From contig CP070701.1 in the NCBI GenBank assembly GCA_020349885.1, forward strand, positions 544,179 through 585,365: DNA of 41,187 nt, given 5' to 3'. The position numbers were made by a program, and so were the translations under genes. Every line of letters begins with the position of its first letter. Position 1 is the first letter of the stretch. Under the pieces are notes generated by a model. It was not told the DNA's origin and made no database searches. It saw nothing but the letters and a program-made list of their open reading frames with translations. The stretch is from Acidobacteriota bacterium. Its GTDB lineage: Bacteria; Acidobacteriota; G020349885. Below are positions 2,643 to 4,183 of the stretch, in pieces.

Positions 2643-3962
2643 ATGATAGCATCCAACGCGATCCAATTGCGGCGGCTGGCAGTGGGGGGGGTTCTGTTCG
2701 GAGCCATAGCGATTCCGCTCTGGCCTCAGGTCTCTCATGAACCGGAAGCTCGCATAAGAAAGTTTGCCGTTGGAGCTGATATTTCGCGCACGGAGTATCA
2801 TGACGAGTCCTTTGGCCATGGCGAGTTCGAAGAAATGTTCTTGGGGGGCGACTTTGCCAAAACCTCCATCGAGGGAGAGTTCCAGTTCACCCTGCATGGG
2901 CAGTACCAGTTCACGCGGCGCTTTTCCGCGGGCGTGAGCCTAGGCTACACGGAAACCTCTATGCAGAACCCTCTTGTGTTTTCCTCTCCCGCCCTGTTCA
3001 ACCGCTTTAATCCATTCGCCAGAGCCGTGATCGAATGCACCGAAAAAATCGCGGATCCTCAGGGTATGACGCTGGTCGAGGGTTGCGTTGACATGGATCT
3101 CTCGGACTCCGTCTCTCCCGCGATTAAGCAGGTCGTCGAACTCAACGAGGACAACTTCAAGGGAGTCACCGCCCTCAAAGAGACTAACCTTTCAGGGAAG
3201 CTGGGCGACTTAACACAAATTCCTCTTATGATCACGGCGCGTTACGATTTGATGCTCAAGACGCGCTGGCGTCCCTGGGTGATCTTCGGCATCGGCTACA
3301 CGCGTAATTCCTACACGGACGCCAACTCCACGGCGGCTGTGCTCCAGGAGATTGTCGATGACGTTTATAATACCGACGGAAGGCTGGGGCCCGACGTAAA
3401 GACCGGTACACAATTTTTATGTGACTACTTAAACACGAACTATCTTCTCTGCGATGGGTTTCACCGGTCCGACGGCAACATAGTGCCGGGTCTCATTTAC
3501 GGCGGTGAGGAGGCAGGCTCGGGTCCATTTTTTATTCAAGGTGTGGAGGAAATCACCCAAGTGAACTGGCAGACCGAGGTGGATGACTCTCTTACGTGGG
3601 GTTTTCAGGGCGGATTTGACTGGACGCTTTCGCGGCGGTGGGATTTTGTGGGGAAGGTAGGCTTCACGTGGTACGACAAGCAGGTGCGCTCGACGTTCAA
3701 CGGAAAGACCGGTACCACGTTCCTTGTCTATCCCAAGCTTTGCGAGTTTATAGACGAGGACGATGATGAAACGAATGATTTGCCGTGCACCCCCCCTTCG
3801 CATGGCGGTAACCACATATTTGTGATGGATTCATACAGCGGGCTCAACGTAAACCATGTAAGTCTTAACGACTGGCTTCATTTTATGCGCATCGAGCCTC
3901 CGAAAATCCGATTGGACATCTGGCATTTTGGCGTCGGGGTTCGCTACACCTTCGGGCGTTGA
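2643..3962 (+). CDS. Outer-membrane beta-barrel protein (OmpW-like), function unknown
   Basis: This is a 439-residue exported protein. A basic N-terminus is followed by a hydrophobic stretch (residues 10-29) that looks like a signal peptide. The rest has alternating hydrophobic/aromatic strands typical of a monomeric beta-barrel (for example LHGQYQFTRRFSAGVSLGY, residues 85-103, and a C-terminal FGVGVRYTFGR strand resembling the BAM recognition signal). Long polar segments between strands would be extracellular loops; cysteines in them could pair. It resembles OmpW/porin-like families only loosely, so the ligand is unknown. The start at 2643 has no Shine-Dalgarno and lies just after a good promoter. 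A run of eight G (2684-2691) sits inside the signal-peptide codons, and the stop codon overlaps the -35 box of the 5S gene. Membership of an outer-membrane barrel class is fairly sure; the family is not. Confidence 0.75.
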   Translation: MIASNAIQLRRLAVGGVLFGAIAIPLWPQVSHEPEARIRKFAVGADISRTEYHDESFGHGEFEEMFLGGDFAKTSIEGEFQFTLHGQYQFTRRFSAGVSLGYTETSMQNPLVFSSPALFNRFNPFARAVIECTEKIADPQGMTLVEGCVDMDLSDSVSPAIKQVVELNEDNFKGVTALKETNLSGKLGDLTQIPLMITARYDLMLKTRWRPWVIFGIGYTRNSYTDANSTAAVLQEIVDDVYNTDGRLGPDVKTGTQFLCDYLNTNYLLCDGFHRSDGNIVPGLIYGGEEAGSGPFFIQGVEEITQVNWQTEVDDSLTWGFQGGFDWTLSRRWDFVGKVGFTWYDKQVRSTFNGKTGTTFLVYPKLCEFIDEDDDETNDLPCTPPSHGGNHIFVMDSYSGLNVNHVSLNDWLHFMRIEPPKIRLDIWHFGVGVRYTFGR

Positions 3963-3987
3963 CAGCCCGCCCCTGATCTGGTATACT
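3959..3987 (+). promoter_or_regulatory. Dedicated promoter of the solitary 5S rRNA gene
   Basis: TTGACA (3959-3964), a 17-bp spacer and TATACT (3982-3987) lie directly before the 5S gene. The expected start, 7 nt after the -10, is position 3994, the first base of the mature 5S. The -35 overlaps the TGA stop codon of the barrel gene. Confidence 0.88.
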
Positions 3988-3993
3988 GGGATT

Positions 3994-4110
3994 TCCGGTG
4001 GCCATAGCGGAGGGGAAACACCCGTTCCCATTCCGAACACGGAAGTTAAGCCCTCCCGCGCCGATGGTACTGCCCGGGCAACTGGGTGGAAGAGTAGGAC
4101 GCCGCCGGGT
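3994..4110 (+). rRNA. rrf: 5S ribosomal RNA (solitary)
   Basis: The sequence contains the conserved 5S blocks CCATTCCGAACACGGAAGTTAAG and CGCCGATGGTACTGC, and ends with AGAGTAGGACGCCGCCGG. Helix I is visible: CCGGTGGC (3995-4002) pairs with GCCGCCGG (4101-4108). The length is about 117 nt, normal for 5S. It lies on the opposite strand from the 23S gene and 1.8 kb from it, with a protein gene between, so it is not part of a 16S-23S-5S operon. Seven T residues (4110-4116) follow helix I directly, so helix I plus this U-tract may itself act as an intrinsic terminator. Confidence 0.96.
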
Positions 4111-4183
4111 TTTTTTATCACGGGGAGCGTAAAACAGTTCGGCTTCATCGGAATATAGAGAGTGCCGTTCTGCGCTCCGATTA

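Follow-up and report, generated by a model that had tools for sequence, protein, structure and literature searches.

A 5S rRNA gene lying apart from the 5' end of 23S in an Acidobacteriota genome, with a putative promoter of its own and candidate tandem terminators

Free-standing 5S rRNA genes, transcribed apart from 23S, occur in some mycoplasmas and in Leptospira, and the usual cases of unlinked rRNA genes keep 23S and 5S together. Unlinked bacterial rRNA genes are already known (PMC7761764, citing Brewer et al. 2020). The 5S gene described here lies in a 41,187-nt stretch of an Acidobacteriota genome (hereafter the window; G000:C1:544179-585365), between a gene for an outer-membrane beta-barrel protein (OMP) and a convergent miaA gene. 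A literature search returned nothing on a terminator role for 5S helix I, or on OMP genes placed between 23S and 5S; subscription papers were mostly outside its scope, and the result is weak evidence of novelty. The features of the locus, in window coordinates, are as follows.

1-2149, minus strand: 23S rRNA gene, 5' part, divergent from 5S, with an N100 gap just before base 1
2288-2299, minus strand: boxA-like element TGCTCTTTGACA in the 23S leader, exact match
2381-2408, minus strand: putative 23S promoter TTGACA-16-TATAAT with TG, 12/12 consensus matches
2604-2633, plus strand: candidate OMP promoter TTGACA-18-TAAGAT with TG
2643-3962, plus strand: OMP gene directly upstream of 5S, assigned by weak PF13505/OmpW matches and a profile match to relatives
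3959-3987, plus strand: putative sigma-70-type promoter TTGACA-17-TATACT with TG (extended -10), 11/12 consensus matches
3960-3962, plus strand: TGA stop codon of the OMP reading frame, within the -35 hexamer
3994-4110, plus strand: 5S rRNA gene (RF00001, 104.6 bits, E 4.5e-22)
3994-4002, plus strand: 5S helix I, 5' strand
4101-4109, plus strand: 5S helix I, 3' strand
4110-4116, plus strand: seven T (T7) abutting helix I, candidate first termination point (T score 4.95)
4124-4178, plus strand: structured spacer hairpin after T7 and before the canonical terminator, from folding
4183-4206, plus strand: canonical intrinsic terminator hairpin with T-rich tail, candidate second terminator, just past the convergent miaA stop
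4212-5261, minus strand: miaA (IPP transferase), convergent with 5S (PF01715, E 9.7e-83)

The 5S gene matched the RF00001 covariance model over its full length (model positions 1-120; gathering threshold, 38 bits) and gave the single match to that model in the whole 2.4-Mb assembly, which is gapped. The one "contig" is a scaffold with N100 gaps at G000:C1:544079-544178, in the 3' part of 23S, and 346896-346995, in the 3' half of 16S. The 23S gene is interrupted at model position 2035 and its 3' end is absent at the gap. No 16S gene was found over 39 kb past the 5' end of 23S, all within the gap-free window; the 16S gene lies ~198 kb away on the gapped scaffold and thus not upstream of 23S, as is the case for unlinked rRNA genes. 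The 16S gene resembles the 23S gene in having its own 12/12 promoter match and a boxA-like element; near the 5S gene, a search that allowed up to two mismatches found no such element. Because the 23S gene runs divergently from a putative promoter of its own and no 16S gene is nearby, the 5S gene appears to be a separate, monocistronic unit detached from 23S, which belongs to an overall explanation that we consider probable.

Upstream of the 5S gene stand the sequence elements of an extended -10 sigma-70 promoter: a -35 hexamer TTGACA (3959-3964), a spacer of 17 nt (the permitted range being 16 to 18), a -10 hexamer TATACT (3982-3987), and TG before the -10. The first-pass annotation had proposed a dedicated promoter of this composition whose -35 shares bases with the stop codon of the upstream gene, and the sequence elements and the shared stop codon were confirmed, while the promoter assignment is supported; by base composition, a site with at least 11/12 matches would fall at this position by chance with a probability of ~5e-6. 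Among the seven sites with at least 10/12 matches on both strands of the window, it was second only to the 12/12 site of the divergent 23S gene. Among the 5S loci compared, promoter-like sites with at least 9/12 matches preceded 4 of 14 5S genes that are cut off from 23S and 4 of 127 others (p=0.003). In one genome (G104, locus L143), an extended -10 element, TGATATAAT, ends 6 nt before 5S, a distance equal to that in the window, and in four genomes of family f17 a conserved TGnTAnAGT lies 20 to 22 nt before 5S. That a comparable extended -10 recurs upstream of 5S genes likewise separated from 23S lends support to a dedicated promoter, although consensus matches as such are not function. The OMP of the window ends in ..YTFGR (3954-3962), two residues past the terminal F of most relatives, and the added codons and new stop supply some of the bases of the 5S -35.

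The -10 ends at 3987, which places 3994 at the textbook +1. It had been suggested that transcription starts exactly at the mature 5S 5' end; the distance agrees with this, but the sequence around the site, TTTCC at 3992-3996, is entirely pyrimidine, and Rfam position 1 of 5S marks a modelled helix boundary, which differs from an experimentally mapped end of the mature RNA. Purines occur no closer than A3991 and G3997, so that none falls 6 to 9 nt after the -10 (3993-3996, TTCC), a position for which purines are a preference and not an absolute rule. The mature 5S of E. coli reaches ~2 nt beyond Rfam position 1. Initiation precisely at the mature 5' end is thus no more than a possibility. The accompanying proposal that little or no end processing would be needed was not supported: the OMP stop and the 5S gene are 31 nt apart with no terminator found between them, for which reason some read-through and processing of 5S are to be expected, and the GATTT leader before the window 5S resembles the ATTT leader found just before operon-linked 5S genes of relatives, where it must be internal to a precursor. 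T-rich leaders, often ATTT or GTTT, directly precede 5S at L003, L004, L005, L006, L025, and many operon-linked acidobacterial loci, and the short T-rich leader of acidobacterial 5S genes is possibly a processing site.

At the 3' end, helix I comprises 9 bp and is GC-rich, its last pair being U.G, and, as the first-pass annotation had noted, it is followed directly by seven T. The U-tract thus comes immediately after a GC-rich stem; helix I nonetheless departs from a canonical terminator stem, since the loop that it closes is the 98-nt 5S body, and in combination with T7 it would work like a terminator at most. A hairpin absent from that annotation starts 72 to 73 nt after 5S (4183-4206), and with 10 pairs, a loop of 4, and a T-rich tail it has the form of a canonical intrinsic terminator. 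The strong intervening hairpin at 4124-4178 matched no Rfam family and is possibly a 3' trailer structure; the segment 4111-4212 folds far better than its shuffles (z -4.3), in part owing to the hairpin at 4183-4206 that it includes. The span from promoter to T7 (3959-4116) is 158 bp, in agreement with a proposed unit of about 160 bp, but the strong canonical terminator speaks against T7 as the only exit. It is plausible that helix I and T7 act as the first terminator here, with the canonical hairpin as back-up.

The relation between T-runs and hairpins was followed across 144 5S loci gathered from the phylum Acidobacteriota, of which 143 were scored; the sampled genomes are related to that of the window at the phylum level only, none being of the same class. 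The window genome itself very probably belongs to Acidobacteriota, most of the neighbors identified through MiaA being members of that phylum. A T-run was defined as at least six T directly after helix I, and hairpins were counted within 60 nt of 5S. In most acidobacterial loci a canonical hairpin began within 20 nt of 5S, and a long T-run was absent. A hairpin was missing from 20 of the 25 genes with a T-run and from 11 of the 118 others (Fisher p 2e-12, 143 genes), and with one vote per family, which corrects for shared ancestry only in part, the counts were 12:0 versus 5:47 (p=2e-9). No strong hairpin (dG -14 or better) was found within 420 nt (212 nt for L046) after the 19 other hairpin-less T-run genes, so that helix I with its T-run was the only terminator-like feature found at those 19 loci; the window is the odd member of the group, with both T7 and a strong hairpin 72 to 73 nt after 5S. 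The T-run genes are AT-richer overall. AT content as the sole cause of the exclusion was rejected, since the exclusion persisted within bins of AT content between 0.40 and 0.55; the bins at either extreme were too mixed or small to judge.

The same comparison in Verrucomicrobiota gave another picture. Among 66 5S loci, 17 of the 19 T-run genes also had a hairpin, with no exclusion (p=1.0), and because T-runs there usually accompany a hairpin, a T-run alone is not diagnostic of termination; in some lineages it may be a spacer or processing site. At Verrucomicrobiota loci such as L164, L167, L190, and L208, T7 to T8 right after helix I is followed by a canonical hairpin ~10 nt on. The idea that the 5S terminal helix and its U-tract may terminate transcription is therefore supported by comparison among acidobacterial 5S genes, where those without a hairpin carry the T-run, and it did not extend to the control phylum. 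The exact promoter-gene-T7 layout occurred in no sampled relative (none of the same class).

The OMP gene proved to be a recurrent neighbor. Six families, that of the window among them, have an OMP gene directly before 5S, in most cases inserted between 23S and 5S; the relatives concerned belong to f4 (G003, G045, G207), f17 (G018, G121, G161, G145), f47 (G169), f50 (G095), and f53 (G104), and the gene before 5S in these relatives ends OMP-like, in ..GGFxLGxGxxFTF and a stop or close variants. The PF13505/OmpW matches of the window OMP were below curated cut-offs, and against the profile of the relatives' OMPs upstream of 5S it gave an hhalign probability of 97.5 (E 8e-12). A paralogue at 2.27 Mb, which adjoins neither 5S nor YebC, scored higher against the same profile; the profile match for that reason establishes homology, though not strict orthology. 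At loci with a sufficiently long, unmasked contig, 23S was found upstream in the same direction in f4 (G207), f17 (G121, G161, G145, and, with a wider cut, G018), and f47 (G169), and the same-direction 23S-OMP-5S loci of these three families are L109, L114, L132, L137, L141, and L053. No intrinsic terminator was found between 23S and OMP in the five contiguous 23S-OMP-5S loci scanned. Two f17 spacers between 23S and OMP contain a weaker promoter-like site with 8/12 matches, TTGATC-17-TATTCT, and a third has a poorer version of it, so that co-transcription of OMP with 23S is no more than possible.

By this gene order, the OMP is possibly a protein message inside an rRNA operon in f4, f17, and f47. 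Two other f4 members (G255 and G185) keep 23S and 5S 120 to 192 nt apart, so the insertion is not fixed in that family. In the window, the candidate OMP promoter ends 9 nt before the ATG (2604-2643), and for this reason the OMP message may be nearly leaderless. The simplest story of origin would be that the OMP gene entered between 23S and 5S and that, in the window lineage, 23S was then inverted or replaced, leaving OMP-5S with a strong 5S promoter.

The elements in the sequence, the order of the genes, the detachment of 5S from the 5' end of 23S, and the comparative statistics are observations; from them we infer initiation, two-step termination, and processing of 5S along the following lines. 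RNA polymerase with the housekeeping sigma factor would start no more than a few nucleotides from the 5' end of 5S, at the extended -10 promoter overlapping the OMP 3' end, and make a short 5S transcript without boxA. It could stop at T7 once helix I has closed behind it, and polymerases passing T7 would be halted by the hairpin at 4183-4206, so that a short trailer would remain at the 3' end and need trimming. OMP read-through probably contributes a minor share of 5S, excised at the AU-rich leader. This explanation, a dedicated promoter followed by tandem termination, is the one we favor and regard as probable. Speaking against termination at T7, helix I must close a structured loop of 98 nt and would be slower to form than a normal terminator hairpin.

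In the leading alternative, 5S is driven by its promoter, all termination occurs at 4183-4206, and T7 is an AU-rich spacer with the 3' end cut by RNase. The canonical hairpin with its T-rich tail on the plus strand is what this reading needs, most relatives use a separate hairpin, and Verrucomicrobiota combine T-run and hairpin. Yet its distance from 5S is 73 nt, against about 20 nt or less in most relatives, the majority of relatives that carry T-runs of this kind have no hairpin at all, and the hairpin is also just beyond the stop of the convergent miaA; we judge this reading possible but doubtful. A different doubt concerns whether the window 5S is a second copy, since an N100 gap stands directly before base 1 and the truncated 23S could conceal a linked 23S-5S there. 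With only one 5S found in the (gapped) assembly, one in most relatives that have a 5S match, and an OMP-5S adjacency that recurs in relatives, such an extra copy seems unlikely.

Less likely still is that 5S comes mainly from the OMP transcript and is excised by processing, the promoter-like sequence being accidental or minor. The 31-nt, terminator-free interval, the candidate OMP promoter at 2604, and the GATTT leader like that of operon-linked 5S genes all suit it, as does G169, where the OMP stop lies 6 nt before 5S and no promoter was found, so that 5S processing must occur there. It would nevertheless leave unexplained an 11/12 extended -10 promoter at the exact place (~5e-6 by chance), and the demand for 5S would be expected to exceed the supply from an OMP message. 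We retain promoter-driven transcription with tandem termination as the preferred reading. A bolder version is put forward tentatively, as somewhat less likely true than false: in at least a dozen acidobacterial families, 5S would be its own terminator, with helix I and the abutting U-tract replacing the hairpin, and here this would be joined to a dedicated promoter in a ~160-bp unit that escaped from an ancestral 23S-OMP-5S locus in which the OMP message was embedded in the rRNA operon. If helix I does act as a terminator stem, a single structure would take part both in assembling the ribosome and in controlling transcription, and termination, instead of nuclease cleavage, could generate the 3' end of 5S. 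Because T-run and hairpin largely exclude each other across acidobacterial families, the helix I terminator idea can be tested, and the recurrent OMP-5S adjacency raises the question of whether an rRNA operon also serves to express a cell-envelope protein.

Set beside known systems, the locus resembles unlinked rRNA genes in that its rRNA genes lie apart, each needing its own promoter, and differs in that 5S is also apart from the 23S 5' end, which is divergent, with an OMP gene between. From the free-standing 5S genes of mycoplasmas and Leptospira it is distinguished by a putative promoter that overlaps a protein gene's stop codon and by the T-run abutting helix I. Helix I with T7 shares with canonical intrinsic terminators a GC-rich stem and an immediate U-tract, whereas its loop is the whole folded 5S (98 nt) instead of 3 to 10 nt; the hairpin at 4183-4206 fits the canonical form. 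The 23S-OMP-5S loci of f4, f17, and f47 have a homologous OMP directly upstream of 5S and, in some, a promoter-like site near the OMP stop. In those loci 23S runs in the same direction as OMP and 5S, whereas that of the window is divergent, and f4 and f17 have YebC-RuvC downstream, where the window has the convergent miaA instead.
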